The translations under genes were made by a program, and so were the position numbers. 64,000 nt of DNA from contig JAPJBO010001147.1 in the NCBI GenBank assembly GCA_030068145.1, positions 1-64,000 of the forward strand, in the 5' to 3' direction. How positions within the stretch are numbered: position 1 is the stretch's first letter; every line of letters begins with the position of its first letter. The DNA is from Diplonema papillatum. Its lineage: Eukaryota; Euglenozoa; Diplonemea; Diplonemida; Diplonemidae. The notes under the pieces were generated by a model. That model searched no databases. It was not told the origin of the DNA and saw only the letters and a program-made list of their open reading frames with translations. Shown in pieces: positions 3,294 through 64,000 of the stretch.

Positions 3294-3295
3294 AG

Positions 3296-22599: not shown

Positions 22600-22635
22600 A
22601 AAGACCACTTTGTAGTTGTATTGTTTTCTCCCCCT

Positions 22636-26872: not shown

Positions 26873-26997
26873 AGGCTCTCATCACTGTCCTGTCTGCAGA
26901 CACTGAGACTCAGCGCTGATGGTCCGCCGGATGTGTCCGTGGCTAAAACACGGTACAGATGTGATGCAGCGTTGAGCATACCATTCCAAGCATCCCC
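26873..26997. repeat. Dispersed repeat R6, copy 2
   Basis: Second copy of the sequence at 19748-19892, shorter by several small gaps, same orientation. Confidence 0.7.
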
Positions 26998-27035
26998 TCC
27001 CCATTTCTTTTTTAATAGTACATCTGTACTGACGG

Positions 27036-27246: not shown

Positions 27247-27271
27247 TGAATTAGTACATTCGTACTGACGG

Positions 27272-27396
27272 GAACATTTCCGGAACCACGGTCGCACGTG
27301 AAAGAGAAAAAACGAAGCCAATTATCTTTCATATGTCATATTATCATTTTGCTTCGTTTATCAGGTGCAAAAAATAGCCTAACTCCGGAAATGTTC
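27272..27396. mobile_element. MITE-like element, family M4, copy 2 (short)
   Basis: Same 13-bp inverted ends (27272-27284, 27384-27396) and the same inner blocks as copy 1, but only 125 bp long. It lies 25 bp from copy 1 in the same orientation, so the pair reads as a tandem array. R1 copy 4 begins 7 bp after it. Confidence 0.7.
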
Positions 27397-27403
27397 TTGA
27401 AAA

Positions 27404-27480
27404 GGCACCTGTCGTAGGAAATAGTTATGGAGGTCGCCAGTTGCAAAATCTTAAGTAGTGCGTGGTTTTCATCGGCATAA
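27404..27480 (-). mobile_element. Dispersed repeat R1, copy 4 (partial)
   Basis: GGCACCTGTCGTAGGAAATA, then GGAGG and CCAGTTGC, followed by a block like copy 3 (GTGG, TCATC.GCAT). More diverged than the others. Confidence 0.45.
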
Positions 27481-30155: not shown

Positions 30156-30593
30156 AGGCAAGGCACGTAGGGGAGTCGAGATCTCGGTCGCGGAGACAAC
30201 CTGCGAGGGAGAAAAGGAAGTGTGCCGAATCATCTGGCGATTCCTCGGGCCCGTCAGACTGGACAGCTGACGTGAAGCGCGAACGGATACAAACAGTACG
30301 CGCGGCAAGAAGCGACCGAAGCATGACACGACGCGTGCAACGAGGGTTGTGCAGTCTATCGTCACAGATTGTTGCTGCATATCAAGTTCAAAACTTCTAC
30401 TCCTACTGCACCAAGACTTTGTTTACCACGCTCTTCACCACCACCACCACCCAACCCAAACAGGACAGCAAGACAGAGAAAGGTAAAGAAAGAAAACAAA
30501 TTACCACAAATAGAGAAGGAGAGAGAGAGCGACACCCCCCCCCCACAAAAGAGGAAACAAACGGAGTTTTTTTTGTCTCCCCCCGGGACTCGG
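30156..30593. promoter_or_regulatory. 5' flank and probable leader of copy B
   Basis: The first part (30285-30395) resembles the interior of M2 (18930-19015), for instance CATGACACG followed by GCAG and TATCG. The last 130 bases are a purine-rich tract (30470-30532), a C-run (30534-30543) and an eight-T run (30567-30574) leading to CCCCGGGACTCGGATG. No TATA-like box could be assigned. The in-frame upstream ATG at 30369 is treated as leader because the paralogue at 28818 conserves only the later start. Promoter function is inferred from position. Confidence 0.35.
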
Positions 30594-33500
30594 ATGCGAG
30601 TCGCCATGCAGCTTTTGCTGCTGGCCGCAACAGCGGCTGGCGATACCACCGGGTATTGTGCGTCGTTGGTGGTCAACACCCCGTCGACAGCCGCTGATCC
30701 GGATTGCCCGGCTACAATGGGGCCTGCGACGAGGTACGCCCTTGACACGTGCACGGACGAGCTTTGCGCTCTGATGACCACCGGCGTCGTCGCTTTGGGA
30801 TTCGACGAAGAATCGCAGGTTTTGCGCAAAGTCGGCACTTCTTGCAGTATTGGCTCCTTTACCGGAACTCCCGACGCGTTCGTTTGCTCGGTGAACCCGC
30901 CGTACCTGCAGTACAGCCAGAATTACGACATCGATTTCCTGCCCGACTATGCTTACGTGTACGACGTCGCTGTTCAGTCGAATACGAGTGACCTGGCCTT
31001 CGCGGCCGGTACAGAGCTGACGGTCTTGCGCATGAAGTCGAACGGTCGCTTTGAGCGCATCGGCAAGTCTCCGATCTACCACTATGGCGTTCAATCTTCG
31101 CAGTTCGTCGACGGACTCGTTTTTGCGACGCAATCGAGCGCGTTTGCGATCCTCGACGTGACGAACCCTTCTATTCCAAAGGAATACACTGTTCCCATCG
31201 ACGGATACAGCTGCGCCGCGATGGGTGAGTACAAGACCAGCACCGCCCACGTCGTATACGTGGGGTGCCCGTATTACGGGGTCTGGCCCGTCGACGTTTC
31301 AACGACTACCAAGCCGGTGATGCTTGGCAACGGAACCGCGTCGCTGTTCTATGAGATTGGCTGGGAAACGTCGTTGATCAGGGGATTGCTGGTCGACAGT
31401 GACCGCGACCTACTCTTTTCAGCGTGGACTAGTTACCAAGTGGGGATTCGCATGTCTGACTTGAAAACCGACAAGGAGTACCCGACCCTACTCGACCATT
31501 ACGAGAACATTTCTCCGTACCGCATGATGCTCCGTGGAACTGTCTTGTACGCTGCAACCACGTCGGGGTTAGAGGTGCTTGAAACGGTCAACCGGAAGCT
31601 CGAATCCCTTTCATCATGCTGTGACGACGGGCCCATCCTCAACCTGCGTGGTGTTACCATGTACGGGGAATATCTTTATGCATCGGATTACAACGGACGG
31701 ATTGTCGTCATGAACGCAACGAACCCGACCCAACCGACGTACGCTGCGCACAAAGACTTCCCTGCAGAAATGGGTACCTATGCGTACGGAGGCGATGGAA
31801 TCGTCGCTTCCGCTTTTTCTGACGGGTCGGTACGCATCATGCAAGCGGCCCGAGGTAACGGGTTCTTGGTGTGGAGCGACCTCACTCCGGCTGCGACGCC
31901 TATTCCGGAGACATTCATTCCGGCGCCGCCAGCGCTTCCGATGGATTGTTCACACGTGAGTGCGCACGTCGGAGTCGAGTGTCCCGAGGGGAAGGCGCTC
32001 ATTGACAGACATATGTTGAACCTATGCACAGCAAGCGCGTGTGCGACACTTCCGGACACCACATCCTTAGCCGTGTTTGACGGCCCCTCCGTCACCACAT
32101 ACGTATACAAAACATCGACGGGTTCGTGCTCCACGAAGTTCGTTTCCGGTGCCACACCCGCGTACTCCATGTGCGGTACGCCTGCACCCCACACGACGTA
32201 CAGTGAGCCTCACACTACAGACGTGCTTCTTCCAAACGCCTACGCGTACGATGTTGCGGTTCTTGGGACAGACAGGAATGACATCGTTGTAGCTACAAGT
32301 TCCGGCCTTACTATCTTGCGCGCAGAGCATTCTGTCGGATTCGAAACTGTTGCTCACGTAGCAGGAGGAGATTACGTAAACTACGTCGCTGTCAGGCCTG
32401 CCGAGAACGACAAAGATGTCCTATTCGCTCTGCGTCAGTCGGGCTTCGACATCGTGGCCCTGACCCCACCGCAGTCTCCCAAAGTCCTCACCTCGGTGAA
32501 GATCGATGCACCCTACTCGTGTGTCGCGATGGACCAGATCCGCAGGGGAGCTCTGGTGCACGTTGTCTTCGCGAGTTGTAAGAAGTACGGTGTTTACGGG
32601 ATCGACGTGAGAGACAACGCAAACCCCGTGTTGCTGAACAATGGCGCGCCTGTGATGCAACCGCTTAGCGGCGTAGCGAAAGGTATCGCGACCGACGAAG
32701 ACCGTAAGTTGCTTTTCGTTACTACTATCGAATCCGGGGCTTCGTTGTACATGTACGACGTCACGGATCCCTCGAAGCCGACCACCGTCTCTTCGCTTTC
32801 GGTACAGTTCGATGCGCACGGTGTCACACGAGCAGGCACGCTTCTTTACATCGCGGCATCGGACAAAATGTACGTCTACGAGTCGAAAGACAAGGCGCTG
32901 TCGGCTGTCGGCAGCTGCTGCACCAATGCCGCCGCCATGGATTTGTACGGCGGGACATTGTACGAAGACGTCTACTACGGGTCAGACTATAAGGGGAAAC
33001 TCGTAATGATGAACGTTTCGGAGCCGACCGCCCCGTTTTACATTGGTCACAAGAACATTCCACAACCGCCCGTCAGCTGGCAGTATCCAACCGGCCGTGA
33101 AGGTGTCGTGGTGTCCGCACTGGGTGACGGCATCGTGCGTGTTTTCCAAGCGGCTTACAGCACGGGGTTGATGGTATACTCCGACGAGAAACCCCCGCCG
33201 ACGCCAGTACCGCAGACTCCGATGCCGCCTCCCCCGGTCCTCCCACCTGATTGCTCGGAACTAACGATTCACGCTCAGGCACTCGACGAATTCTGCGACA
33301 CCGGCGATGTCCTCATGAGCGCAGCGATGATTGACACGTGCGGACCCACCACGTTGTGTGCCCTGATGCCGGACAACACCGAAGCAGGATTCGATAGTTC
33401 CGATGAGACGTACAAGAAGACAGCCGGTGTTTGCTCAATCGAATCGAGCAGTACAAAGCCGAGTCGCTTCGTTTGCGGGCCCCCTCCACCGCTCACCACG

Positions 33501-36500
33501 TTCGTGGTCCAGTACGACCAGGATTTCTTTCCCGACTACACTTCTGTCAGAGCCGTGGCGGTCATGGGGCCGACCTATCGCGAAGCTTTCGTGGCGACCA
33601 CCAACGGTCTTATGATCCTGCAAATCTCGGACACCGGTCGCTTCAAAAGGGTCGGAACCGCAACCGGCGACTACTACGGAGCGCTTGCCTCGGAAGCCCT
33701 TCCAGGAGTATTTTACGGTTTGAGGTCGAGTTATCTTGACATCTTCATCTTGGACGACCCGACGAACCCGACTCTGAAGGCGAGCAGCAACTGGTGGGGA
33801 TACAGCTGCGCTTCGCTGAAGGAGTACAAGCAGGGGTCAGATGTGTTCGTCTACGTAAGCTGTCCGTCGTATGGCGTGTGGGCGGTGAACGTGACGGATA
33901 TATCGAACCCTGCTCTTACAACCAGCCAGGGCGACGGCTTTTTTGAGCCGGTTGATGGTGACACCAGAGGCCTGGCAGTCGACACCGACCGTAGTTTGCT
34001 CTACCTGGCCACGAGCGGCACCGGTTCCGGTCTCTACGCCTTGAACATCGGAGGTAATGCAGCTCTTCCCGTGAAGGTGACGTACTACCCCTCGGACAAC
34101 AGCGTCTACGAGGTCGCGGTGTCCGATGGGAAGATTTACGCTGCAGCAAAATCCGAACTCGAGGTTTACGACTTCGTGAACAACGAGTTCGTGGCGCTCA
34201 CCTCGTGCTGCAGCCACGGTCCTAAGCTGGATCTCCGTGGTGTGACGATCTACGGTGATCTGGCGTACTTGTCGGATTACAATGCGAAGCTGGTTGTCAT
34301 GAACGTGTCCTCCGCGTTGTCCTCACCGTACTACATTGGCCACCGCGACTTGCCGAGCGACTCTGGTAGTATGGCAGGTCAGGCCGGTGTTGTCGTTACG
34401 ATGCTCGGTGACGGACAGATGCACGTTTTGCAGGCGGGTTACTCTGCCGGGCTGATGACGTTTTCGGACGTCGAGCCTGGGCCGACGCCAGCGCCACCGA
34501 CGCCGTTGCCACCGCCTCCTGTCGAGCCAATGGACTGCAGCCACGTTTTTGTGGAGGCAACCTCCACTAGATGCCCGGAGGGTTTTGTCTTGATGAACGA
34601 ACACCTCATCGAATCTTGCTTCGACGACAGCCTGTGCGCGAAGCTGACCGCTGGTGTCGTGTACAAATGTGACACGACAACAGGTGTAGCCGTCGTCAAG
34701 ACGGGTACGCAGTGCTTTTTCAGCGACTTGCCGGCATCTGAACCTTCACAGGCACTTTGCGGGACGCCGCCTCCGTACACGACGTACTCTCTACTGCACA
34801 AGGTATTGGACACCTACTCATACGCGCGGGATCTGGACATCATGGGGTCGGCCGGGAAAGAAATTGTGCTGGCGCACACGGACGGTGTCTCAGTATTCTC
34901 CGCCGAGCACTCTACCGGGTTCGAGTTGCGCGGAACGTACCCAGGATACTTCTACTCCGTGATGGCCGCTGCGCACAACGCTGACCTTGTCTATGCAGCG
35001 AGATATGGCACCGTCGAGCTGGTGAGCTTCTCTCCTCCAACAGCCCCCAGGAAGGTTAGTGCAGTGGACATAACCAACCCTTGGCCGACTTGCTACCACA
35101 TGGAGCAGCTGTACGTCAAATCCGAGGGACTGCACGTGCTTTACCTGAGCTGCGGTTACCGCGGGTTGTACGGAGTCGATGTCAGCGATGACAACAACCT
35201 GGTTGTCCTGAACAACGGCCAAAAGCTTCTTTCTCCAGCCAACGGTGACATCCAGGGTCTGTTCGTTGACCTCCCCCGTCGATTCCTCTTTGCCGTGTCC
35301 GATACGGCAGCGGCCGAAGTCTACATGTTCAACGTTTCCACCGCTGAGAAGCCGATGCGGCTTTCGTCGTACGAACTGGAGAGTCCTGGGATTGCGATCG
35401 TCGTCGAGGGAACCGTTGCCTATGCTGCAGGGCAGAAGAAGGTGGAAATCTTCGAAACAAACACTATGGCATTCGTGCCGATCTCCTGGTGCTGCCAGCA
35501 GGCGCCGGACATGAACCTCCGTGGCATCACGTGGTACAATGGCCTTTTGTACGCGTCGGACAGCTCGCCTAGATTGTTCGTCATGAACGTCACCGACCCC
35601 ACACTTCCGTATTATGACGGCCACCGCGAGATCTCGGAGGGTGGAACCACTTCCAGCAACCCCCAAAAAATCAAGGTCGGCAAACTTGCTGACAACGTGA
35701 TGCGGGTATTCCAAGTGGTGTACAGCTCAGGGTTCGTTGTGTACAGCGACGAGGTGCCCCCCCCGACGCCTGCTCCTCCTACGCCTCTGCCACCACCCCC
35801 CATTATCCCGCCTGACTGCTCGCAGTTGTACGTATTCGATACAAGCACTGTCACCGACGACTCTGTGTGCAACGAAGGTCATGTGCTGTTGAGCGAGCAC
35901 ATCATCGAAGCTTGTGACGAAGCGTGCGATGCTATGAGTGATGGGTGGATTGTCAACTTCGACGGACAAGCTGGCCAGGTTTACAAGAAAACGGGAACAT
36001 CGTGCACTTTCGAGGACGGTGGCGATCAGACCCGAAAGTTGTGCGGCCCCCCTCCGCCTCTCACTGCTTACAAAACCGACATCGACGACGGCTATTTTCA
36101 GTCTACTTATGCTTCTATTTACAGTGTTCTGTTGTTGGGCGATGCGCGATCTGAGTTCCTTGTTGCACACAGTGATGGAATGACGGTTGTAACCCTCAAC
36201 AACGAAGGTTTGTTCAACCCCATGACACAATACGAATCTACCAACACCTACTATGACCTGCAGATCATGATGGGGGAGAACGCTGTTGTTATCGCTGCGA
36301 GAGCGTACGGTATCGACATTCTGGACGTGTCGAATCTCCTGAAACCGAAGAAGATAGGTTCCGCCGAGGGTAATGGTTATTCGTGCTACGATCTCGCCCA
36401 GTACCAAACCGCAACATCTCACACGGTATACGAGGGGTGTGACTACAGCGGTGTCTACATCTACGATGTGACAGATAAGACCAAACCGGCGAAGAAGGGC

Positions 36501-39500
36501 TCTGCCCTCGAACCCTCCACCAGCGCCGACATTGGCGGTGTCCTGGTGGACAACTCACGTGCGGCACTTTTCATCACAGGAGAATCCTGGAGTGATAACG
36601 GTGGTATTTATCTGTACAATCTGACCACCTCGCCGCTCGATCCTGAGTATGTGTCTTCTACGAAGACGGACATCTCGTGTTTCGACATGGTCATGGTGGG
36701 TACAACTCTTTACGTCGCAGGGGGAACTCAGTTGTTGATTTACGATACTTCTGACTTGGCATCGTGGGTGCAGTTGGGGTTCTGCTGCCACTTTGGTCCG
36801 GAATTGGACATCCAGTCTCTGGATGTTTACAGTGGGATGGTGTACGCGGCAGACTACGACGGACGCTTGATTGTCATGAACGTCACGGACCCACAGGCGC
36901 CGTACTACCTCGGCCACCACGAGCTGACGAGTTCGTACGCAGCGAGGAAAGTTGTCGTGGGAACTTTGAAGGACAACGTCCAGCGTGTCTTTGCTGCCAA
37001 CGATTACTACGGTTTGTCGATTTTGACGGACGTCGAGCCTCCCCCCACACCAGCCCCTCCGACACCGTTCCCGCCTCCGCCTATGCCGCCCATGGACTGC
37101 AGCAACACGCAGTTGGTGTCTTACGTGAGCACTGGCGATTCTTGTCCGAAAGGCATGATTGTCATTCCGGATCACTTTGCTGGTATTTGCGCAACAACGA
37201 TATGCGACCAACTCACAGCAACAGACTTCGTTGAAATCGATTATTTCAGCAACTACTACTACGTGAAGGATGGAACGACTTGTAAACGAGTCTATGATTC
37301 GACTGGATACCCGACGAAGACCTTTTGCATCGTCCCGCCGGCACACATGACCTACAAAGAGGGGCACACCGAGGTACTTGCAACAAGTGCGAAAGCGTAC
37401 GACGTAGCGATCCTTGGATACGACTCGAACGACGTCGTCGTGGCTACCGACAAAGGGCTCACGGTCCTGCGGGGCGCTCAATCTACTGGACTCGTGAAGG
37501 TTGGACACGTGGACGGTGATTACGTAGCTGTCATTGCTGCTGAGCACACCACTGACGTTGTATTTGCACTGCTGACCGACAAGCTGGACGTGATCAGTCT
37601 GATGCCACCAGCCACTCCGAAGGTTATGAGCTACGTGTTCCTGGCCAGCACCGAGTGTAACTCTCTTGCGCAGTACAGGAAGAATACTGTGTACCACATG
37701 ATCTACACGAGCTGTGGCAAAGATGGTGTGTTTGCCTTCGACGCGAAGGATATGGAGAACCTGACGGCGGCCAACAACGGGGACGCTGTGATCACTGTTT
37801 CCGGGAGCCAAGGGGTCGCGATCGACGAACAGAGACAGCTGCTCTTCCTGGTCACCGACGGGTCGGCATCCGCCGTGTACATGTACGACATCACCGATCC
37901 AAAGGTTCCGGTGTTGAAGGCGACGAGTGCCACCGAGTTCGAGTCGACAGAGGTTGTCATGAACGGCGATATTGCGTACATCGCGGCGCGGGACAAGCTC
38001 GAGATTTACAGCACTTCGGGGCTCACCTTCGAGCAACTCGGGTACTGCTGCGTGAATTCTCCGTCTCTAGAGATCGAGGGTATTGCATACCGCGACGGGA
38101 TTGTGTACGCATCGGACAGGTACGACGAATTGATGGCCTTCAACGTGTCCGACCCGTATGTGCCGTACTATGCTGGGCACCGAGAAATTGGTGGGTACAA
38201 CTACGGAGCGAGAGGAGTAGTTGTTGCAGCTTTGGGAGACGGGATTGTGCGTGTGTTCCAGGCCGCAACGGGAGCGGGAATCATGGTGTACTCTGACATG
38301 GAACCCGTCACGACGCCGACGCCAGCAACAGCGCCACCACCACCGCCACTGCCGCCGATGACTTGCGATGATTTGTACATCACAGCTGAGAACGTGGCTT
38401 GCGCTGATGATGAGATCATGATGAACGAGCATATGATCAACCGGTGCAAAACCGAAGTCTGCTCAAAGCTGGCCGTGTCCACTTCAGCCATGTACGACGC
38501 TAACAACATGATGTTCAGCAAGGATGCCGCCGGCACGTGCTCACTCACGACATCCACCGGAACCGTGACGCGATCAGTATGCGGCCCATCGCCGCCATAC
38601 ACCAGGCACTACGACATTTACGACATCGGCTTTCTCCCCGACTATGCTTACGTGTACGACGTGAACATGCTCGGGTTCGACAGTGACGTAGCGGTGTCAG
38701 CTGGTACGGAACTGACCATCATGCAAATGAACTCCAACACTGGACGATTTGCAAGAGTTGGCAGGGTGGGTCGGTACTACTACGCAGCGTTGCCTGCTTT
38801 GAACCAGAAGAACATTGTGTATGCCACGCAATCGAGTTTCTTGGATGTTATTGACTTGAGTGACCCAACGTCACCGGTATTGGTCGGAACAACCGATCGC
38901 ATTCCGAGCGCCTACGGTTGTGACGGTTTGTCGGAACTGGTCAGTACCCATGGACACCTTATGTACGTTAGTTGCGGATACTACGGTGTTTTTGTCATCG
39001 ACATCAGCAAGAATGATGCTCCAAAAGTGTTGAACACTGTTGACGATGGTCCTTCAGTCCGGATGCAGAGCTTGACCACCACCTCGTACGGTTACGCCGA
39101 AGGTATCGCGGTCGATGCTAGCCGTAGTCTTCTATTTACGGGTTGGGCGATAAGCAGAAAGGGTATCGCTATGCACGACATCTTGAAGGACACAGTGTAC
39201 CCCGAAGAGATCGAGGTCCTGGATACGACTCCCGACATTTACCAGATCGAACTTGTCGACACGGTTTTGTACGTCTGCGCTAGGACGGAGCTCTCAATTT
39301 ACGAAACTGCCACACGCGCGTTTTCTAAGTTGAGCTCTTGCTGTGACCACGGACCTACCATGTATCTGCGTGGGTTGCAATATTACGAGGGGTTGGTGTA
39401 CGCGTCAGACAACTACGGTATGCTGATCGTCATGAACGTCACTGACACTGCAGATCCTTACTACATCGGCCACCGAGAGCTCCCGCCGTCCTCGGGAACG

Positions 39501-40811
39501 TATAAATATGCGAGAGAAGGAGTGCATGTGGGACAGATGAAGGATGGGATCACGCGTGTGTTCCAGGCAGCTGCAAGTGGTGGTGTCGCTATTTGGTCCG
39601 ACGTTGTGCCGCCTCCGACGCCTGTTCCTAACACCCCAATGCCGCCCCCTCCGCCGGTGCCGATGGACTGCGGTCACGTTTTCCTGTACGAAAAAGGTGA
39701 CGATGGTGAGGACTGTCCTGTGGGGAAGGTTACCGTGTCCCAGTACATCATCGACGAGTGCGACAACATTTGTGACAACGTGACCTCAGACATGGAGGTA
39801 GGCTACGACGGGTCAACAAACAGCGTGTATTACAACTCGGGCACTGCATGCGTGCGAAAGACTTCGTCGAAACCCACAAAGTTCGCTTTCTGCGGGTCTG
39901 CTGCGCCGCATACAACATACGTTGAGCCGCATGGTTCTGACGTTGTGATACCCAACTCGCGCGCATACTATGTCGCGGTGCTCGGAAGAGACAGCAATGA
40001 CATTGTGGTAGCAACAACAGGGGGGCTCACCATCTTGACAGCTGAGAGCAACCTGGGCTTCAAGGCGGTCAGTCACGTCTCCAACACCGCCGGGTACTAT
40101 TGCGTGAAGCCGGCGGAGAACGACAAGGATATGGTGTTCGCCCTGTCGTACAAGGCATTGGACATCATTTCGCTTTCGCCGCCGACCAACCCTACACTTC
40201 TCAGTTCGATTGCTATCCCCTCGCTCAGCAACTGTCTACTGATGGACCAGATTCGCAGGAGCGCGCGCGTGCATATTGTGTACATCACGTGCCAAGCCGG
40301 TGGTGTCTTCGGCGTGGACGTCGCTGACTCAAACAATCCTGTTCTTCTCAACGGGGGCAACCCGGTCATGAGTCCGTTGAACGGGAACAGCAAAGGCATC
40401 ACTACTGACGAGGACCGTCAGCTGTTGTTCATCTCGACCATCAGCAGTTCAGCCTCTGTGTACATGTACGATGTTAAGAACGCTACTTCGCCTGTTCTTT
40501 TGGATGACGCGGCTGTTGCCAACTACGCCGCAGGCATTGTTATTCATGGCACGATCCTCTACGTTGGCGCGGACGAGCAGCTGGTGATTTTCGAAACCAA
40601 AACGCTCGAGTTTGAGCAACTGTCTTTCTGCTGCGACGGCGGCCCCCCGCTTGAGTTTTACGGTCTGGCCTACTACGATGGGCTGATCTACGGGTCGGAC
40701 TATTACCAGAAGGTCTTCGTCTTCAACGTTACCGACCCCCGGGCACCACACTACTTGTCGCACAAGACGATGCCAATGAAGGTTCTACCCCGTACGGACG
40801 AGAAGGTATAG
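30594..40811 (+). CDS. Giant modular LVIVD beta-propeller surface protein, copy B, segment 1 (signal peptide, modules 1-8)
   Basis: True N-terminus of the gene. ATG 30594 (or 30606, four codons later) begins MRVAMQLLLLAATAAG, a signal peptide with likely cleavage before DTTGYC. The start is chosen because the paralogue at 28818 conserves both methionines and nothing upstream. Modules start near 30642, then 31944, 33249, 34533, 35814, 37095, 38361 and 39666. Odd modules are a-type (for example FLPDYAYVYDV) and even ones b-type (DVAVLGTDRNDIVVATSSGL). Each has the six-cysteine domain, LVIVD-like blades, VYxSC, CC and a PTPAPPTPLPPPP-like linker. Near 40776 one base appears to be missing (CCAATGAAGG where CCAAATGAAGG would keep frame). 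This stops the frame at 40811 inside the last blade of module 8. Confidence 0.93.
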   Translation: MRVAMQLLLLAATAAGDTTGYCASLVVNTPSTAADPDCPATMGPATRYALDTCTDELCALMTTGVVALGFDEESQVLRKVGTSCSIGSFTGTPDAFVCSVNPPYLQYSQNYDIDFLPDYAYVYDVAVQSNTSDLAFAAGTELTVLRMKSNGRFERIGKSPIYHYGVQSSQFVDGLVFATQSSAFAILDVTNPSIPKEYTVPIDGYSCAAMGEYKTSTAHVVYVGCPYYGVWPVDVSTTTKPVMLGNGTASLFYEIGWETSLIRGLLVDSDRDLLFSAWTSYQVGIRMSDLKTDKEYPTLLDHYENISPYRMMLRGTVLYAATTSGLEVLETVNRKLESLSSCCDDGPILNLRGVTMYGEYLYASDYNGRIVVMNATNPTQPTYAAHKDFPAEMGTYAYGGDGIVASAFSDGSVRIMQAARGNGFLVWSDLTPAATPIPETFIPAPPALPMDCSHVSAHVGVECPEGKALIDRHMLNLCTASACATLPDTTSLAVFDGPSVTTYVYKTSTGSCSTKFVSGATPAYSMCGTPAPHTTYSEPHTTDVLLPNAYAYDVAVLGTDRNDIVVATSSGLTILRAEHSVGFETVAHVAGGDYVNYVAVRPAENDKDVLFALRQSGFDIVALTPPQSPKVLTSVKIDAPYSCVAMDQIRRGALVHVVFASCKKYGVYGIDVRDNANPVLLNNGAPVMQPLSGVAKGIATDEDRKLLFVTTIESGASLYMYDVTDPSKPTTVSSLSVQFDAHGVTRAGTLLYIAASDKMYVYESKDKALSAVGSCCTNAAAMDLYGGTLYEDVYYGSDYKGKLVMMNVSEPTAPFYIGHKNIPQPPVSWQYPTGREGVVVSALGDGIVRVFQAAYSTGLMVYSDEKPPPTPVPQTPMPPPPVLPPDCSELTIHAQALDEFCDTGDVLMSAAMIDTCGPTTLCALMPDNTEAGFDSSDETYKKTAGVCSIESSSTKPSRFVCGPPPPLTTFVVQYDQDFFPDYTSVRAVAVMGPTYREAFVATTNGLMILQISDTGRFKRVGTATGDYYGALASEALPGVFYGLRSSYLDIFILDDPTNPTLKASSNWWGYSCASLKEYKQGSDVFVYVSCPSYGVWAVNVTDISNPALTTSQGDGFFEPVDGDTRGLAVDTDRSLLYLATSGTGSGLYALNIGGNAALPVKVTYYPSDNSVYEVAVSDGKIYAAAKSELEVYDFVNNEFVALTSCCSHGPKLDLRGVTIYGDLAYLSDYNAKLVVMNVSSALSSPYYIGHRDLPSDSGSMAGQAGVVVTMLGDGQMHVLQAGYSAGLMTFSDVEPGPTPAPPTPLPPPPVEPMDCSHVFVEATSTRCPEGFVLMNEHLIESCFDDSLCAKLTAGVVYKCDTTTGVAVVKTGTQCFFSDLPASEPSQALCGTPPPYTTYSLLHKVLDTYSYARDLDIMGSAGKEIVLAHTDGVSVFSAEHSTGFELRGTYPGYFYSVMAAAHNADLVYAARYGTVELVSFSPPTAPRKVSAVDITNPWPTCYHMEQLYVKSEGLHVLYLSCGYRGLYGVDVSDDNNLVVLNNGQKLLSPANGDIQGLFVDLPRRFLFAVSDTAAAEVYMFNVSTAEKPMRLSSYELESPGIAIVVEGTVAYAAGQKKVEIFETNTMAFVPISWCCQQAPDMNLRGITWYNGLLYASDSSPRLFVMNVTDPTLPYYDGHREISEGGTTSSNPQKIKVGKLADNVMRVFQVVYSSGFVVYSDEVPPPTPAPPTPLPPPPIIPPDCSQLYVFDTSTVTDDSVCNEGHVLLSEHIIEACDEACDAMSDGWIVNFDGQAGQVYKKTGTSCTFEDGGDQTRKLCGPPPPLTAYKTDIDDGYFQSTYASIYSVLLLGDARSEFLVAHSDGMTVVTLNNEGLFNPMTQYESTNTYYDLQIMMGENAVVIAARAYGIDILDVSNLLKPKKIGSAEGNGYSCYDLAQYQTATSHTVYEGCDYSGVYIYDVTDKTKPAKKGSALEPSTSADIGGVLVDNSRAALFITGESWSDNGGIYLYNLTTSPLDPEYVSSTKTDISCFDMVMVGTTLYVAGGTQLLIYDTSDLASWVQLGFCCHFGPELDIQSLDVYSGMVYAADYDGRLIVMNVTDPQAPYYLGHHELTSSYAARKVVVGTLKDNVQRVFAANDYYGLSILTDVEPPPTPAPPTPFPPPPMPPMDCSNTQLVSYVSTGDSCPKGMIVIPDHFAGICATTICDQLTATDFVEIDYFSNYYYVKDGTTCKRVYDSTGYPTKTFCIVPPAHMTYKEGHTEVLATSAKAYDVAILGYDSNDVVVATDKGLTVLRGAQSTGLVKVGHVDGDYVAVIAAEHTTDVVFALLTDKLDVISLMPPATPKVMSYVFLASTECNSLAQYRKNTVYHMIYTSCGKDGVFAFDAKDMENLTAANNGDAVITVSGSQGVAIDEQRQLLFLVTDGSASAVYMYDITDPKVPVLKATSATEFESTEVVMNGDIAYIAARDKLEIYSTSGLTFEQLGYCCVNSPSLEIEGIAYRDGIVYASDRYDELMAFNVSDPYVPYYAGHREIGGYNYGARGVVVAALGDGIVRVFQAATGAGIMVYSDMEPVTTPTPATAPPPPPLPPMTCDDLYITAENVACADDEIMMNEHMINRCKTEVCSKLAVSTSAMYDANNMMFSKDAAGTCSLTTSTGTVTRSVCGPSPPYTRHYDIYDIGFLPDYAYVYDVNMLGFDSDVAVSAGTELTIMQMNSNTGRFARVGRVGRYYYAALPALNQKNIVYATQSSFLDVIDLSDPTSPVLVGTTDRIPSAYGCDGLSELVSTHGHLMYVSCGYYGVFVIDISKNDAPKVLNTVDDGPSVRMQSLTTTSYGYAEGIAVDASRSLLFTGWAISRKGIAMHDILKDTVYPEEIEVLDTTPDIYQIELVDTVLYVCARTELSIYETATRAFSKLSSCCDHGPTMYLRGLQYYEGLVYASDNYGMLIVMNVTDTADPYYIGHRELPPSSGTYKYAREGVHVGQMKDGITRVFQAAASGGVAIWSDVVPPPTPVPNTPMPPPPPVPMDCGHVFLYEKGDDGEDCPVGKVTVSQYIIDECDNICDNVTSDMEVGYDGSTNSVYYNSGTACVRKTSSKPTKFAFCGSAAPHTTYVEPHGSDVVIPNSRAYYVAVLGRDSNDIVVATTGGLTILTAESNLGFKAVSHVSNTAGYYCVKPAENDKDMVFALSYKALDIISLSPPTNPTLLSSIAIPSLSNCLLMDQIRRSARVHIVYITCQAGGVFGVDVADSNNPVLLNGGNPVMSPLNGNSKGITTDEDRQLLFISTISSSASVYMYDVKNATSPVLLDDAAVANYAAGIVIHGTILYVGADEQLVIFETKTLEFEQLSFCCDGGPPLEFYGLAYYDGLIYGSDYYQKVFVFNVTDPRAPHYLSHKTMPMKVLPRTDEKV
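30642..38360 (+). repeat. Six-module super-repeat 1 (modules 1-6)
   Basis: Module n resembles module n+6 more than its neighbours. Modules 1, 7 and 13 share an aberrant blade with LLF followed by a W/Y-rich segment in place of VATxG. Modules 2, 8 and 14 share YGSDY/F, modules 3, 9 and 15 share YVSCP, modules 4, 10 and 16 share CYHMEQ, and modules 5, 11 and 17 share IYDT/ETxDLA before the CC. This unit is about 2,573 codons. Confidence 0.75.
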
Positions 40812-51240: not shown

Positions 51241-51826
51241 GTTCCTCGTCGACGAGTGCCTCACGTCTATCTGTAGCCAGATGTCCGACGGTTGGATCGC
51301 TGGTATCGATGGTGGTTATGCTGCTGTCCTGCAGAAAACCGGTACAACGTGCACTGTCACAACATCATGGGCGATCCTCACGAGGTACGTGTGCGCGCCA
51401 CTGCCGCCTTTGACGACGTACACAGAGCAATACGATGGTGAAGAATACTGGTCGCAGTGGGCTTACGTCGACGGTATCGTGCCAGTGCCAGGTACCAAAC
51501 TAGTTGCGGTTGCAACCTCGTATGAATTGACGTTGTTGGAGCTGCAGGAGAATCGCCGGTTCACAAAATACGCATCGCTGGACAGCCTCTACGGAATGAA
51601 GAAGTTGTTGATTGTCGATGGTTCGCCGGACAAGCTTTTCGGGCTAGAGTCCTACGGCTTGTCGGTCATCGACATTTCGAGTCCGAAAACACCGAAGGTT
51701 GTAGGAGCGCGAACCTTGACGGCTATTACACCGAGAACATGGCCCAGTACAGATCCGGTGCAAACCACTTCGTGTACATCCCGTCTGACACAAACGGAGT
51801 ATATGTCGTGGATGCCTCGAAGCTGA
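50867..51826 (+). CDS. Giant modular LVIVD beta-propeller surface protein, copy B, segment 5 (end of 16, first half of 17)
   Basis: Picks up DGLIYASDYYSMLVVINATD immediately after the extra base. It carries the linker PTPQPPTPMPPPP and the cysteine domain of module 17 (from 51158). The stretch broken in copy A (3285) is intact here and reads KLFGLESYGLSVIDISSP. A missing G at about 51705, with several nearby substitutions (GCTATTACA against GCTGGAGCA), shifts the frame, and the non-homologous tail stops at 51826. Confidence 0.88.
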   Translation: MRTVDGLIYASDYYSMLVVINATDPTAPYYVGHKSLPSVGGYVARGTFGMAVAPLQDGVVRVFLAAEGAGLFVFSDTVPAPTPQPPTPMPPPPLAPLDCSKFSIFDASKASGGKQCETGDGVAPEFLVDECLTSICSQMSDGWIAGIDGGYAAVLQKTGTTCTVTTSWAILTRYVCAPLPPLTTYTEQYDGEEYWSQWAYVDGIVPVPGTKLVAVATSYELTLLELQENRRFTKYASLDSLYGMKKLLIVDGSPDKLFGLESYGLSVIDISSPKTPKVVGARTLTAITPRTWPSTDPVQTTSCTSRLTQTEYMSWMPRS

Positions 51827-54800: not shown

Positions 54801-57800
54801 GGTCGTGATGAATGTCACGGACCCCACGGCATCAAGCTACGTAGGCCACAGGGAGTTGCCGCCAGCGGCGAGCGGGAATTCGAACGGCAAGGAAGGCATC
54901 GTCGTCTTGCCTTTGGCCGACAGCATCGTTCGCGTTCTGCAAGCTGCAGACAACGGAGGTCTTGTTGTCTTCTCCGACACGGAGCCGTTCCCAACGCCGG
55001 TGCCGCAGACGGCCTTGCCGCCTCCACCTTCGCCCCCTTTTGACTGCAGTACGGTAACAGTTCATGACAAGGTTGAGGGAGAGAACGAGTGCCCACCTGG
55101 AAAAGCGGGCGAGAGTATGTACATCGTCGATAAGTGCAACACAGCGATCTGTGCGCAGATGGTCACCGGGGATTTGGCTTCCTTCGACGGTGACGTGTAT
55201 TTCACGAAGAAGAGTGATGGAACGTGTGCATGGAACATACTTGGCACGGCTACGAAGACCATCTGTGGAATCCCGCCTCCCCACACGGCGTTCGGTGAAG
55301 TGCACAGAGGAGATGTGCTGCCGGCGAAGGCAATAGCAAGGGACGTGGCTATCCAAGGATCTGACTCGAATGATGTTCTTGTTGCCTCGTCGGCGGGTTT
55401 GACTGTTCTGCACGCGTTGCACTCGACGGATTTCAGACTAGCGGTGCACATTGATGGTGACTACTACTCTGTCCTCCCTGCGTCCAACAACCCGGACATT
55501 GCCTTCGCATTGAGAAGTACTCAATTGGACGTCATCTCGTTGTCTCCGTTGGATTCTTCGAAGGTTGTAGGCACAGTCGCCCTCCCGAGCAAGGCCTGCT
55601 CGTCGATGGTGCAGCTCCGTATCTGGACAGGCTTGCACGTGTTGTATGTCAGCTGCCACGCCGATGGAGTGTTCCTCGTCGACGTCGCGGATAACGCGAA
55701 ACCTGAACTTCTGAACAACAAGACCGCCGTGTTCACAACGTCTAGCGGCGAAACCAAGGGAATGGTTGTTGATAACACCAGAGGCTACCTCTTCGCTGGA
55801 ACCTGGGGCGAGACACCCTCTCTGCACATGTACGGTGTAGGATTCCCGAACAAACCGAGAGAGGCAGCTGTCGCAACTGTGGACTACGACGCGCACGAGC
55901 TTGCGATCTCCGGAAACATCCTTTACGTGGCAGCATCGGAGAAAGTTGTGATCTTCGACACTACAGACGAAAAACTGACTGTCGTTGGACATTGCTGCAA
56001 CGAAGAAACAGCAACCATGCAAGCAGTTGGTATCTTCTACTACGACAACATGGTCTACGTGTCTGACCATGGAGTAGACCAGGGAAAGCTGGTGGTCATC
56101 AACGTAGAAGACGAGACAGCGCCATACTACATGGGCCACAAGGACTTGCCGTACACCGGCGAGTTCCCTTTCGGAAGGGAGGGTATCGTTGTCGGAAGCC
56201 TAGGCGACGGTATTGTTCGTGTGTTCCAAGCGGGTGACGTGGCTGGGCTCTTCGTTTTCTCAGACGAGGAACCAGTAGCTACTCCATCCCCTCCCACGCC
56301 TATGCCACCCCCACCGATGCTTCCGCCGAATTGTCACACCCTCTATGTCCACGACTCATCTACCGACGGCGAAATGTGCGAGAAGGGAGACGTGTTGATG
56401 AGCAACCACGTCATCAATGCATGCCGGGACGATGTCTGTGGCCTATTAACGTCAGGGACTGGCGCCGGGTACGACATCGATAACAGAATCTTCAACAAGC
56501 AGGGGTCAACGTGCGACTATGGATCGACTACCAGCAGTAGTATTACGAAGTGGATCTGCGGTCCGTCGCCGCCGTACACAACGTACATGCAGAGGTTTGA
56601 CGATGGGTTCCTGCAGGCGTGGTCGCGTGCTGTTGACGTCGCCGTGCTGAAACCCAACGACGATGCTGTGTTCGTCGCCACGACTAAAGACTTGACAGTC
56701 CTGCAGCTGGACGCTGGGTCGTTTAAGAGGGTTGGTTACTGGCCGACGTCGTACATTGCAGTCATCGCTGCAGAGGGACACGAAAACATTTTGTTCGCCC
56801 TGGCCCCCAGTTCTCTCGACATCATTAGCGTCGAGTCGCTAACCAGCCCGAGCAGGGTCGCAACCGTCACCATCTCGAGCTTCGCTTGCGCCAACCTTGA
56901 GCAGCTCCGAACAAGCACCAAGCACGTCGTCTTCTGCAGTTGTGCCAACAGCGGCATTTTCGCCGTCGACGTATCGACCATTGCGAGCCCGAAGCTGCTG
57001 AACAGCAACAAGGCCATCGTGTTACCCTCTTCGGGCACTTCAAAAGGCATGGCCATTGACGAGCCTCGCCAGATTCTGTTTGCAGTCACCACCGGCTCTG
57101 CAGCAGGCGTGCACATGTACAACATCAGCATCGTCTCTGCACCGAAGGAGCTTGATATGACGGCGACGGACAACTCCGCTTACGAGTTGGATATCGACGG
57201 TACGATTATATACATTGCAGCCTCCAGCAGGCTTGAAATCTACGAAACCGCCGCTGGTACCTTCGAACAACTGTCGTGGTGCTGCCACTACGGGCCGGGG
57301 ATGTTCTTGGTCGGCATTCAGCACTTCAACGGGTTGGTGTACGCGTCGGACTACAGCGCGAGACTTGTGGTTATGAACGTGACGGACCCGGAAGCACCAT
57401 TCTACATGGGACACAAGGAGATGCCGGCTGGTTCGGGGGGCAATTCGAACGGAAAGGAAGGCATCGTCGTCGTTCAGATGAGCGACAACATTGTGCGAGT
57501 GTTTGAAGCTGCGGACAACGGAGGACTTGTTGTGTTCTCTGACGTGGAGCCGAGACCGACATCAGCCCCGAATACACCTCTCCCGCGGCCACCCTCGCTT
57601 CCTGTCGACTGTTCGGCAGTCTTCATCGTTGAAGGTGATGAATGCCCGGCTGGCAGTGTTCTGCTGAACGAACACATGATCAACCAATGCACAGCTGATT
57701 TCTGTTCTACGCTTGAAACAAGTGATTACGTGAAGTACGATCAACTGTCTTATTACTGGTACAGAAAGAGTGGCAGCGGTTGCACGTCGCGGTCTTACGA

Positions 57801-60800
57801 CTACTATGGTGTGGCGACACACGCGGCCTGTGGTCCGCCACCGCCGTTGACGGCATACTTGGAGCAGCACCAGAACGATATTCTTGTGAACTATGCTCAG
57901 TGCAGGGACGTTGCTGTTCTTGGGTCGGACAGCAACGACATTGTGGCCGCGACGTCTGGTGGTGTGACGATCCTGCACGCATACCACTCGGTCGGCTTCA
58001 AGAAGGTTGGTCACGTCAACGGTAACTATTTCGCGGTCACTGCATCACAGAGTGACCCGGATCTTCTGTACGCACTGAAGAACAACGCCTTCGACGTCAT
58101 CTCGTTGACACCGCCTGAGAATCCTGAAAACATGGGCACTGTTTCAATCCCGAGCACTGCTTGCCAGAGAATGGTTCAGTTCAAGACGCAGCGCGAGCAC
58201 ATCATGTACGTAGCTTGCCACAGTCAAGGCATCTTTGCAGTCGACCTATTGCAGAACTCGAAGCCTGTGCTGATGAACAACGGCAGTGCTGTGATGCACA
58301 CCCTTAGTGGCGAGACGAAGGGCATTACTGCGGACGTGACGCGTCAATTGCTGTTCGCTTCCACTTGGGGTGATGCTCACGCTGTGCACATGTACGACAT
58401 CACTGACAGAATCTCGCCAGTCAGCTTGGATGATGCGACGACGCTCTACAATGCGTACGAATTCACACTCCAGGGGACTATTCTTTACGTGGCTGCTGAT
58501 AGGGACTTGGAGATCTACGAGACTGCGACCCTCAAGTTTGTCGCTATCGGCGCGTGCTGCGAGAGCGGCCCAGACTTCATGATGGTCGGAATTGCATACT
58601 ATGACGGCTTTGTGTATGGATCAGGTTTCAACCAGAAGCTGGTGGTCATGAACGTGACGGATCCGTACAACCCGTTCTACGTCGGCTACAGGCAGCTGCC
58701 GCAGAAGAACTACATGTGGCCGAATGGCAAAGAAGGCATTATTGTGGCGGCACTCGAAGACGGAGTACCGAGAGTGTTCCAAGCGGCTGGTAGCGGTGGT
58801 GTGATGGTGTTTTCAGACATTGAACCCGTGGCGACTCCGTCGCCTCCTACGCCGATGCCTCCACCGCCGATGCTGCCGCCTGACTGCACTCTGTTGTACG
58901 TTCATGAGTACGCTACCAACACACTCCAGTGTAACGAGGGTCACGTCTTGATGAGCACGCACCTCATTGAAGTTTGCGCTGAAATCTGTGACGACATGCA
59001 GGAGGGTTGGCAGGCTGGCTTTGACGGAAACACCGGCAAGTTGTACACCAAGACGGCAACTGGTTGCGAATTCGTAGAATCGACTGCAATTCCAGACAGG
59101 TACATCTGCGGGGTACCGCCACCACACACGGCGTACATGACTGTTTACGATGACGGGTTCTTGCCGGACTACTCACGCGCGGTTGATGTGGTGGCGCTGG
59201 GCGAGAGCAAAGATGAAGTTCTTGTCGCCACGACGACGGCATTGACGGTTCTGCAGATGCAGGGCAATGGGTACCTGAAGACGTTCGGATCCTTGGACGG
59301 TGCTTACGTCAGCCTTTTGCCGGCCGGCGGACAGCCAAACGTCTTGTACGGTCTGAAATCACACCAGCTGGACATCATCAGTGTCATCGATGTCAGCTCA
59401 CCTGTGGTTGTGGGTCGGGTACCCATCCCAAGCTACCTATGCGCGAACCTGGAACAGTTCACGACGCCGAATGATCACGTTGTGTACGCAAGCTGTAACA
59501 AAGACGGTATCTATGCTATCAACGTCGACTCCAACACCGCGCCGAAGCTTCTGAACGGTGGAAGTCCTATTGTGAAGCTGGAATCTGGTGAAAGCAAAGG
59601 AATGCTGGTCGACGCATCGAGAGCGTACCTCTTTGTTGCCAGCGCAGGTGGAGACAGTGCCTTCCACTTGTACAACATCAGTGACCCGTCCGTGGCTTAC
59701 CACTTGGCGAAAACGTCTACTGGCGACTCGGCGTATGAGATGGCGATGCACGGCACGGTACTGTACGTTGTGGCTGCCTCGAAACTCGATATATTCGAGA
59801 CGGGCAATGGTTTGCTCACGCAGATCAGCTTCTGCTGCAGCTTTGCTCCTGACATGCACCTGGTGGGCATCCAATACTATAACGGGATGATCTACGCGTC
59901 GGACTGGATGGGCAAACTTGTGGTGATGAACGTGCAGGACAACACAGCACCGGCGTACATTGGCCACAGGGACCTTCCGCCCGCTTCTGGCGGCAACTCG
60001 AACGGTAAAGAAGGGTTGTTCGTGACGACGTTGGGAGACGGCATTGTGCGAGTGTTCCAAGCCGCCGACAACGGTGGTCTTGTTATGTTCTCTGACGTGC
60101 AGCCGATTCCAACACCAGCACCCCCAACTCCGATGCCCGCTGCACCGGTTCCGCCGTTCAACTGCGACAACATTGTTGTGAACACATACGTTGAAGGAGC
60201 GTCTAGCTGCACCGATGGCACCGTCCTTGAGAACAGCCACGCCATCAACAAGTGCATCACGGAGATCTGCTCGCGCATGTCGGATTCGGATGTTGCGTCA
60301 TTCGACGGCCCAGACGGCATGTACTTTGTAAGGACGGGCACCAGCTGCTCTATCAAGAGCTCAAGCTCGGCGGCATCGAAAGTCCTCTGCGGCGTAGCCC
60401 CGCCGCACACAGCCTACATGGTGAGTCACAAGAGTGGGACGCTCATGTCGGGTTCGTATGCGAGAGAAGTCTGTGTCCTCGGATCGCACTCTAACGACGT
60501 CGCAGTTGCCACGTCGAAGGGTCTTTCAATCTTGAACTCGTACACGTCCGTCGGTTTGAAGACTGTGGGGACTCTTTCCGGCAACTACTACTCTGTGCTG
60601 GCTGCTGAGGATGACGCAGACCTGCTCTTCGCACTGACACCAAGCTCGCTGCAAATTGTGTCGCTGACGCCTCCTTCGTCGCCGCAAGTGCTGGGTACTG
60701 CTGTGCTCGGTAGCTGGAGTTGCCACGGCCTGGCGCAGCTGAGGAGAGGTACAACCGTGCATGTCGTTTACGCGAGCTGCCACGCGCAGGGCGTGTATGC

Positions 60801-63800
60801 AGTCGATGTCAGGGTCAATGACAATCCGGTGGTGATGAACGACGGTGCTGCTGTGTTGAAGCCTGCATCTGGAGAACCGAAGGGCTTTGCTGTCGATGAA
60901 ACACACACTCTGTTGTTTGTGGCTACGTGGGGGAACACCCCGGCAGTGCACATGTACGACGTGAGCGTGCCAGACACGCCGACCGAAGTGGCGAGTGCAG
61001 AGACGTCGGGTTCTGCATTCGAGGTGGTATCCATTGGTACGTATGTGTACGTTGCGGCTCAGCGTACTCTGGACGTATTCGACTCGGCGAACCAGGCGAT
61101 GGTGAAACTTGGCTGGTGCTGCGGAGAAGGATCAGCCCCGAGCATGTTCATGGTCGGCTTGACCGTTTACGACAACGTAGCGTACGCATCGGACTTCAAT
61201 GGGAAGCTCATTGCTTTCAACGTTACAGTCCCGTCGGAGCCGTACTACATCGGGCACAGGGACCTGCCGCAGGGTAATGGCAAAGAAGGCATCACAGCGG
61301 CGGCACTGAACGACGGAGTCGTCCGTGTGTTCCAAGCATCAGACTCTGGAGGTCTCGTCGTCTTCTCTGACGAGGAACCTGGCCCAACCCCAGCGCCACT
61401 GACGCCGATGCCGCCTCCACCTGTCATCCCGCCTGACTGCTCTGCGATGTACGTGTTCACACGTACAGCTGACACGGCTGCTGAGGTGACTTGCAACAAG
61501 GGCGACGTGCTGATGAGCGAGCACCTGGCATTGAACTGCATGGATGACATGTGCGTCGACATCGAAGAAGGTTGGATGGTTGCTATCGACGAAAGCGAGC
61601 AAGCCATGACGAAGGAGAGTGGTGTCTGCAAGATCGTCGACTACAGCGAACTGCCCGAGCGGTACGCCTGCAGCCCGGCTCCTGCTTACACAACGTACAT
61701 CTCGGTGTTCGATGACGGCGTGCTTCCTACTTCTTCGCAGACGTATGACGTTGCTGCGGTTGGTGCGGACACGTGCCATGTTCTCGTTGCAACGTCGGGC
61801 GAGTTGTCGATGCTGCGCTTGAAAGACAACGGCAACTACGAAAGGATCGGCGGCGTTGAAAACACTGGGTACATGGCAGTGGTGCCGGCTGAAGGCAGTG
61901 CGGACAAGGCATTCGCTTTGCGCTCCAACGGCTTGGACGTTGTGGACATCACCGACTTCAGCAACCCGACTGTTTCGTCGTCTGTCTCCTTATCCAGCTA
62001 CCGATGCTCCCGTTTGCGTGAATACAAGACGTCGACGTTCGACGTAGTTTACGCGAGCTGTCACGACCAAGGCGTCTTCGCCATCGACGTTCGCAACGAA
62101 CCGACGCTCCTCAACAACGGTGTTGGGTTGAAGCCTTTGACGGGAGAAGCGAAGGGTCTGTACGTTGATGTTGCTCGAAACCTGCTTTTCGTGGTTACAT
62201 GGGGGAGCGACCCCCACGTGCACATGTACGACCTAAGTTCACCGGGTCCAGGTGCTCCGGCCGAGTTGTCTTCGATGAAAACTGACCGCTCTTCGTACGA
62301 GATTGCTATGTCCGGCACGTACCTGTTCCTTGCTGCAGAACCGGAGCTTGAGGTGATGAACAGTGACGGAGGTCAGCTCACGCGGATTTCTTCGTGTTGC
62401 AGCCACGCGCCGAGCATGCACCTTGTTGGGTTGACTTACTTCAACGGGATGGTGTACGCGTCGGACTACATGGGGAAGTTGGTTGTCATGAACGTTACTG
62501 AGCCGACGGCGCCGTATTACGTCGGGCACCGCGACCTCCCGTCCGGATTCAACGGAAAGGAGGGCATCATTGTGGCCACGTGCGAGTCGACGCCTCGTGT
62601 CTTCCAAGCGGGTGCCGGAGGAGGTCTTGCTGTTTTCGGTGACATTGAGCCGATGAGCACGCCTGTGCCGCCGACCCTGGCACCGCCGCCACCGCCGATG
62701 CCGCCGTCGTGCGATGACATTGAGGTGTACGAGGGTGACAACGCGACTGGTGTCTGCCCTGAAGGCAAGGTGATCATGACGAAGCACGTTGTGAACTGGT
62801 GCATGACCGAGGTTTGTGAGAAGATGGTGGATGGGACCAGTGTTGCGCTCGACGGGGAGGACAGCATGATCCTGCGCAAGGTGGGGACCACATGCGAGAT
62901 TGTATCTGGCACAGCCGACAGCGGAGCAGCGTGTGGCCCACCTGCTCCTCTGACGAAGTTCGTTTCGTCGTACAGAGAGGATCTCCTGCCCGACGGCAGC
63001 AGTGCCACGGACGTTGCTGTCCTCGGCACAGATGACCGGAACATCGTTGTGGTCGGTTCAGGCGGTCTGACCATCATCAGAACGACAGAAGACGGCAAGT
63101 TCCAGAGAGCGGCACAGGTTTCCGGAGGCGATTACGTTGCAGTCCTCGCCGCAGACCACAACCCGGACATTGTGTACGCACTGACGAAAGACAGCTTGCA
63201 CATATACTCGGTGATGCCGGCCAGCTCTGCTGGGCTCATCGGCGAAGTCAGCATCGACAGCTCGTCTTGCAAGAGCTTGTCTCAGTTGAGGTGGTCGTCG
63301 AACACGCACATCGCGTACCTGAACTGTGGAGAGTCTGGTGTCTTCGCTGTCGACGTCCTTGACAGCAAGGCCCCGAAGGTTCTGGCAGAGGGCAAGCCTG
63401 TCATCGACGCGCCTGTGCCAGGTATGATTACGGACGTCTTCGTCGATGAGAAGAGGTCGACGTTGTTCGCAACGATGAAGACTGCTGACCAGGCGTCCGT
63501 AGCCATGTACAGCCTGACAAACCCTACGAAGCCCGAACTGTTGGACAGTATCCTGTCTGACCACACTTCGTTCGATGCGGAGGTAGTTGGCACCCTGGTG
63601 TATGTTGCCGCGGGTGACAAGCTCGAAGTGTATGAGACGGCCAGTGGAAAGTTCCAGCTTCTGAGCGCATGCTGCGACGAAGGACCGGTGATGAACTTGG
63701 TAAGCATCAAGCACATGGGTGGATTGATCTACGCTACGGATGCTTCGGGTAAGTTGGTGGTGCTGAACGTGACGGATCCGAGGGCGCCGTACTATGCCGG

Positions 63801-64000
63801 CCACCGCGACATGCCCGATGGTGTGCAGGTTGACGGCAACAACCGCCTCACCATTGCGGCTTTGGCCGACGGCGAGGTTCGTGTGTTCCAAGCTGCCGGT
63901 GATTCTGGACTCGTCGTGTTCTCGAACGTTGAGAGCGCCGGCAATGCTCCGCCAATGACGCCATCACCCAACGTTCAGCCTACGACGCCGGCCCCCGTCT
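51706..64000 (+). CDS. Giant modular LVIVD beta-propeller surface protein, copy B, segment 6 (rest of 17, modules 18-26), cut by window edge
   Basis: Open without interruption from about 51706 to the right edge (first ATG 51739, not a start). Modules start at 52444, 53734, 55042, 56329, 57607, 58882, 60160, 61435 and 62707. The region that is out of frame in copy A (5181-5341) is intact here, giving VPEYVGMRQLPVVDWNYPYG and an unbroken linker to 53734. The last base of the window is the first base of the terminal half-module, so the stalk, transmembrane helix and tail seen at 15647-16264 should follow outside. Expected stop is about 617 bases beyond the window. Confidence 0.93.
53734..63999 (+). 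repeat. Four two-module (dimer) repeats of copy B
   Basis: Dimers at 53734-56328, 56329-58881, 58882-61434 and 61435-63999, the same layout and lengths as 5381-15646 in copy A. Confidence 0.8.

Follow-up and report, generated by a model that had tools for sequence, protein, structure and literature searches.

The 64,000 nucleotides of DNA from the marine flagellate Diplonema papillatum analysed here (positions 1 to 64,000, forward strand, of contig JAPJBO010001147.1, termed C1147 and 64,144 bp long; hereafter the window) carry two head-to-tail giant genes whose products would be strings of 26 modules, each made of a cysteine-rich domain, a β-propeller and a proline-rich linker. The upstream gene is present with its 3' portion (copy A), the next gene downstream (copy B) starts at position 30594, and the 3' end of copy B falls outside both the window and the contig. 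There is, in our judgement, an even chance that the encoded chain serves as a multivalent glycan-binding receptor for uptake or prey capture that resembles LRP and the mannose receptor by convergence. If translated as read, it would give a unicellular predator a receptor in the megadalton range and, to our knowledge, would rank among the longest chains of whole β-propellers.

A profile of the module recovers 26 whole modules of about 426 amino acids in copy B (30699-63972), the number of cysteine-domain, propeller and linker repeats already counted in a first-pass annotation made from the letters alone. With this profile the modules of copy B that are free of breaks reach scores of about 440-580 bits, which excludes chance as the source of the string. 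Each module consists of a six-cysteine domain, a propeller and a proline-rich linker of 26 residues, in this order, and contains invariant cysteines and one N-glycosylation sequon, features that together with the signal-peptide-like start of the gene mark a protein destined for secretion or the cell surface. Structure prediction for module 2, the one module modelled, yielded the closed β-propeller that had been anticipated (predicted local distance difference test, pLDDT, 87.9; predicted template modelling score, pTM, 0.88). The propeller is probably seven-bladed, as judged from 27 strands and from matches to seven-blade folds. The proposed relationship to LVIVD propellers was also borne out: PF08309 (LVIVD repeat) reached 28.3 bits against a cut-off of 20.2 on an N-terminal piece of 1210 amino acids in which no single stretch passes alone, and it appeared at E≤0.1 in 8 of 22 single modules. 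A 2210-amino-acid piece of copy A matched the KIB1-4 β-propeller instead (29.3 against a cut-off of 27.4). For the cysteine domain of module 23 (10526-10777, copy A) an aerolysin/C-type-lectin-like fold is predicted at 12% identity. None of the 25 cysteine domains scanned (E≤10) gave a convincing Pfam match, and there was no sequence match in PDB; one of the 25 matches Intimin_C C-type lectin, at only E 0.13. Absence of other families from the lists of fold matches is no evidence, and viral entries in them, with a pithovirus protein in the top row, show only that propellers are common in viruses. A giant-virus origin was considered and dropped, as one IMG/VR scan returned no relative. The features of the window are as follows.

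1..16264, + strand: copy A, 3' part of the upstream gene, from the end of module 14 to module 26, followed by cysteine half-module, helix, tail and stop
5369-16264, + strand: single open frame of 3631 amino acids in copy A, after the breaks in modules 17 and 18
15650..15955, + strand: 27th cysteine domain of copy A, a half-module without propeller
16031..16114, + strand: predicted transmembrane helix of copy A (hydrophobicity scan)
16115..16264, + strand: predicted cytoplasmic tail and stop of copy A (tail alignment with the family)
16265..30593, + strand: spacer between the tandem copies, 14.3 kb
28818..30155, + strand: partial 5' duplicate of the gene, with a frame-broken signal-peptide-like start and about four tandem 282-bp units
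30547..30593, + strand: 47-bp leader, at which near-identity with the copy on contig C1613 starts
30594..64000, + strand: copy B, 26 modules, frame breaks in modules 8, 14, 15, 16 and 17
30594..30644, + strand: signal-peptide-like start of copy B, MRVAMQLLLLAATAAGD (by eye and by comparison with paralogues)
30651..38357, + strand: six-module block I, modules 1-6
31941..32195, + strand: example of the six-cysteine domain, module 2
31965..33275, + strand: structure-modelled stretch of module 2
38358..46027, + strand: six-module block II, modules 7-12, break in module 8
46028..53730, + strand: six-module block III, modules 13-18, breaks in modules 14, 15, 16 and 17
53731..63972, + strand: C-terminal eight-module block, modules 19-26, placed in the module tree with late modules of paralogous genes

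The ends of the protein are those of a predicted type I membrane protein. The signal peptide proposed at 30594 was upheld as a signal-peptide-like start, judged by eye, and starts of this kind are likewise seen in those paralogues that have an N-terminus. The single transmembrane helix and the stop at 16264 were found in copy A, where they follow a further cysteine half-module; for this gene, half-module, helix and Y-D-K-hydrophobic end are seen via copy A only. The helix is the sole 19-residue window above 1.7 on the Kyte-Doolittle scale in pieces of 3405, 2218 and 3631 amino acids, a scan that covered the chain outside modules 14-18. The tail of copy A comprises about 50 residues (EELQDFDYV ... 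NSNYDKL). All five family tails aligned share a single hydrophobic helix, an (E/Q)EL(Q/E)(D/E)F pattern and a YDKL end, and with gene III on contig C687, which ends in YDKM, six family tails end in Y-D-K-L/M. This Y-x-x-hydrophobic end we take to be a sorting motif. In LRP1, YXXL has been reported as the main endocytosis signal (PMC11325810).

The best relatives are the D. papillatum proteins DIPPA_20903, 10716, 10719, 10720, 10723, 09931 and 25414, all deposited as 'hypothetical protein'; protein searches scored word-sharing candidates of similar length only, and relatives in other diplonemids may exist. These relatives contain the same module, the eight proteins retrieved have 5-16 full modules each, and the four models that reach the end share the tail. 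On this basis a Diplonema lectin-propeller family is defined here by the module repeat and by the combination of cysteine half-module, helix and Y-D-K-hydrophobic tail, both of which the present gene displays. One of them, DIPPA_25414, represents a copy of the present gene in fragmentary form. The models of DIPPA_25414, 10716, 10719, 10720 and 10723 split or shorten giant single-exon genes, and the DIPPA models probably carry spurious introns.

Within one chain the modules are 28-50% identical, in a matrix comprising all 26 (23 of them whole; one open piece each stands for modules 8, 14 and 17). They fall into odd and even classes, even lags exceeding odd lags by 4.6 points, and modules 1-18 additionally have a period of six (44.1% versus 34.6% identity); in neither case did any of 20,000 shuffles reach as high a value. 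In a midpoint-rooted tree built from 80 modules (23 from this gene and 57 from six paralogue models; support values unread), the sets 1/7/13, 3/9/15, 4/10/16, 5/11 and 6/12/18 join their counterparts among the first six modules in other genes, and modules 19-26 cluster with modules that come late in other genes. Because of the period of six and these groupings, the sequence comparison resolves the chain into 3 x 6 + 8 modules, the front six-module block having been tripled. DIPPA_20903 instead multiplies a single two-module unit. Exceptions to the pair pattern are modules 25 and 26, both of which this midpoint-rooted tree places on its even side; module 26 itself, which is weakly similar to all others; and module 1 of DIPPA_20903, which clusters with module 19. 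Growth 'always in pairs' is therefore a pattern and not a law, independent events being few.

The first-pass annotation had described a single frame of about 34 kb that started at 30594 and ended at 16264. Its arithmetic for a gene of 34,023 bp is sound, since start and end of copy B differ by one net base; the end at 16264, however, belongs to the upstream neighbour, such that the proposed span joins two tandem genes, and the reading frame of copy B shifts in five modules (8, 14, 15, 16 and 17). Copy A has three frame changes, one in module 17 and two in module 18. Where A and B overlap, each has an open frame at the breaks of its partner. The 5' half of the C1613 copy has three breaks, in modules 2, 7 and 8, and copy B is open at modules 2 and 7. 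The break in module 8 is identical in B and C1613, the two assembled copies that cover this module, and the module-14 stretch has a full match in the assembly in copy B only; for modules 8 and 14 no open version exists among the assembled copies, and none of the copies seen contains an uninterrupted 26-module frame. At each of the five breaks of copy B two open frames meet or overlap and no module part is missing, an arrangement that speaks for small insertions or deletions and against introns as their origin; the gene is apparently intronless.

Long intact frames do occur in the family. Genes III and IV on C687 each consist of one unbroken frame with 14 modules (6196 and 6197 amino acids), gene II on the same contig has 12 modules and one break, and open frames of 8224, 7411 and 7043 amino acids are found on C278, C853 and C595, respectively, the one on C278 spanning 16 consecutive modules among the matches listed. 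In comparisons which all share copy A and hence are not independent, which rest on small counts, and whose codons belong to modules 19-26 or part of them, 3' of all breaks of copy B, the ratio of non-synonymous to synonymous substitution (dN/dS) was 0.41 for the C687 copy (43.5 synonymous and 58.5 non-synonymous differences in about 2720 codons, Fisher p 1.6e-5), 0.21 for C1613 (9 and 6 in 3631 codons, p 0.003) and 0.40 for copy B (10.5 and 13.5 in 3426 codons, p 0.052). The value for C1613 versus B over modules 2-7 (0.69) was not used because the frame crosses two breaks there and out-of-frame codons are aligned. Random consensus errors would not be expected to yield a bias of copy differences towards synonymous sites. 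Given the intact frames of sister genes and the synonymous bias among copies, consensus errors are the probable cause of the breaks. A long single frame is believable for this gene class, and by these ratios the 26-module class is under purifying selection.

Copies A and B (1-15647 and 48352-64000) are 99.68% identical over 15.65 kb, with zero differences between 12,473 and 15,647. In the D. papillatum assembly (271,365,524 bp, 2910 contigs), the genome searched throughout, the gene class has five assembled 3' ends, on C1147, C1887, C1613, C2289 and C687, and three 5' ends, on C1147, C1613 and C400 (97%). The 3' end piece is 99-100% identical on C1887, C1613 and C2289 and 88% identical on C687. 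The first 2 kb of 3' flank from A, C1613 and C687 have a full match each on their own contig only, and these unique flanks imply at least four distinct copies, namely A, C1613, C687 and C1887/C2289 as a group. The same order of end, spacer and start as on C1147 is present on C1613 with a different spacer. This join, the contig-specific flanks and the five 3' and three 5' ends led us to reject an assembly artefact or a circular molecule behind A and B. Haplotypes are an unlikely source of the copies, as the laboratory strain is reported to be haploid (PMC10161547).

Near-identity is confined to the coding sequence. A and C1613 are 99.8% identical over 10.95 kb and 27% identical in the 140 bp after the stop, and at the other end near-identity of B with C1613 begins 47 bp before the ATG. 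The spacers share scattered pieces of about 75-98% identity, many of them repeats, and C1613 and C687 share a stretch of about 89 bp, 85% alike, directly after the stop. Between A and the C687 copy, which adjoins the family genes II-IV, there is one differing site from 12.5 to 15.5 kb and there are 49 (plus 27 gap columns) in the last approximately 770 bp. Gene conversion among old tandem copies would best explain this distribution. A second set of giant family genes, very similar to one another, lies on C853 (51.7-72.5 kb and 80.1-98.1 kb; the 7411-amino-acid open frame and a second copy downstream), with pieces on the small contigs C2590, C2161, C1957 and C2723; the assembly may have collapsed a further tandem array here. 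At C17:270570-270826 there is a fragment 78% alike to the junction of modules 13 and 14, accompanied by a short overlapping inverted match.

The 282-bp units of the partial duplicate upstream of copy B (28.9-30.0 kb, 94% matches) consist of a module-2-like cysteine domain and proline-rich linker without propeller, and the later ones sit within an open frame of 371 codons. In the Diplonema genome 5' gene parts are often tandemly repeated upstream (PMC10161547), a habit which these repeats fit; alternatively, 28818-30155 might be a small secreted multi-lectin gene. Two 2-kb pieces of the spacer have their full-length match in the assembly only at C1147. The spacer also contains a perfect 144-copy TAC microsatellite (20454-20886) and two dispersed repeats, one at 30034-30409 and one at 22457-22785, each found at dozens of places among the matches listed (about 78-85% and 84-99% identity, respectively, for the main ones). 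A tRNA scan and Rfam at gathering score gave no match in the window, and a search for the dinoflagellate spliced leader gave 0 matches.

A role in capture and uptake is our best guess on account of the many binding modules, the lectin-like fold, the glycosylation sites, the single helix and the tyrosine-based tail. The head-to-tail genes would give rise to type I membrane proteins with a mass near 1.2 MDa, at 106 Da per residue, with an ectodomain of 26 modules followed by the 27th cysteine domain, the membrane helix and a tail of about 50 residues. On the cell surface or within the feeding pocket, lectin-like domains and propellers would attach to glycans or glycoproteins from prey or its debris, and the tail (YDKL, Y-x-x-hydrophobic) would deliver the receptor with its cargo to the endocytic machinery. 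We infer a position at the surface, the binding of glycans, uptake and translation as one chain. We know of no molecular description of food recognition and uptake in diplonemids. For D. papillatum itself a diet of living eukaryotes has been inferred, in which the cell would break the walls of its prey and engulf particles (PMC10161547). The main rival, possible but on balance unlikely, is a structural surface coat, stalk or attachment fibre in which the chain would space or cross-link the surface and the tail would anchor it without uptake. The constant linker length and the many repeats would suit such a role, and the conserved tail could bind the cytoskeleton rather than adaptors, but the predicted lectin-like fold and the Y-x-x-hydrophobic end fit ligand capture better, and 28-50% identity among modules is more variety than a uniform fibre needs. 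The stalk-like adhesin or scaffold envisaged in the first-pass annotation thus keeps its place as a candidate, although fold and tail point rather to a capture-and-uptake receptor.

The tandem copies with their mosaic near-identity, and the 12- and 14-module genes adjoining one copy on C687, could instead belong to a receptor for cell-cell recognition or aggregation, of kin or of mates, whose array copies exchange sequence by gene conversion; near-identical copies with synonymous-biased change are the opposite of a diversified set, and this role appears improbable to us. Even less credit is given to the idea that the 26-module genes are decaying pseudogenes and only the shorter sister genes work. 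It would account for the five breaks of copy B, the three of copy A, another three in the 5' half of C1613 and the one in gene II, and for the module-8 break common to two copies. Against it stand the long open frames 3' of every break of B with dN/dS of 0.41 and 0.21 there (B versus A 0.40, p 0.052), the existence of a copy with an open frame at every break of A, B and C1613 other than those in modules 8 and 14, and genes III and IV on C687 without breaks. Least probable is a polyprotein cleaved after secretion into single lectin-propeller units: near-regular modules on uniform linkers would favour it, but the linkers are nearly devoid of basic residues (4 in 624) and the two RX(K/R)R motifs in the 10,984 residues scanned, which also contain 14 KR/RR pairs, both lie within propellers, although other proteases are possible. 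The receptor proposed here is directly testable owing to the intact 14-module sister genes and to gene replacement, which works in D. papillatum (PMC10161547).

Among known systems, bacterial and metagenomic LVIVD-repeat proteins share the propeller sequence family of the module (for example KQI52_01465; P0020, 4568 amino acids; profile E 9e-38 and 4.9e-135 among 11 sequences searched), whereas the cysteine domain was found in 0 of 9 of them scanned at a sequence E of 10. The architecture is closest to LRP1 and LRP2 (megalin), giant type I receptors in which cysteine-rich domains and propellers alternate and a single helix is followed by a tail with a tyrosine motif. LRP chains, however, have YWTD-type propellers, 8 per chain, and complement-type and EGF repeats, whereas the Diplonema chain has LVIVD-related propellers, aerolysin/C-type-lectin-like cysteine domains and proline-rich linkers in 26 pairs; no domains of the LDL-receptor family (LDL-A, YWTD) were listed when 22 modules (E≤0.1) and 25 cysteine domains (E≤10) were scanned against Pfam. 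The likeness is thus read as convergence: the chain may work like LRP but is not one. The mannose receptor is an endocytic receptor with multiple C-type lectin domains, a cysteine-rich and a fibronectin-II domain, and is not known to contain propellers; the Diplonema chain differs in its 27 cysteine domains, which have no sequence match in PDB, and apart from the one Intimin_C match at E 0.13 no mannose-receptor-type domains appeared in the same Pfam scans. A receptor-binding domain is reportedly common to aerolysin and pertussis toxin (title of Rossjohn, 1997, as cited in PMC3605176); here the resemblance amounts to 12% identity without a profile match, and nothing pore-forming or toxic is seen in the chain.

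Our search of the literature on LVIVD, propeller, giant and surface proteins of diplonemids found no description of such a protein, though one may exist elsewhere, and 'propeller', 'giant' and 'adhesi' are absent from the main text of the genome paper (PMC10161547). Both folds are known; within the scope of the searches their combination, the number of modules and the pairwise plan are new. Growth by pairs and six-module blocks together with near-identity that ends at the coding sequence makes the family a clean case for how giant repeat genes grow and stay alike. We tentatively propose, with less confidence than the receptor function itself, that diplonemids independently evolved megadalton endocytic lectin receptors whose unit, the odd-even pair, was multiplied whole as pairs, six-module blocks and genes, and whose tandem copies are kept alike by gene conversion stopping at the coding sequence; they would then stand next to LRP/megalin and the mannose receptor as a third solution.
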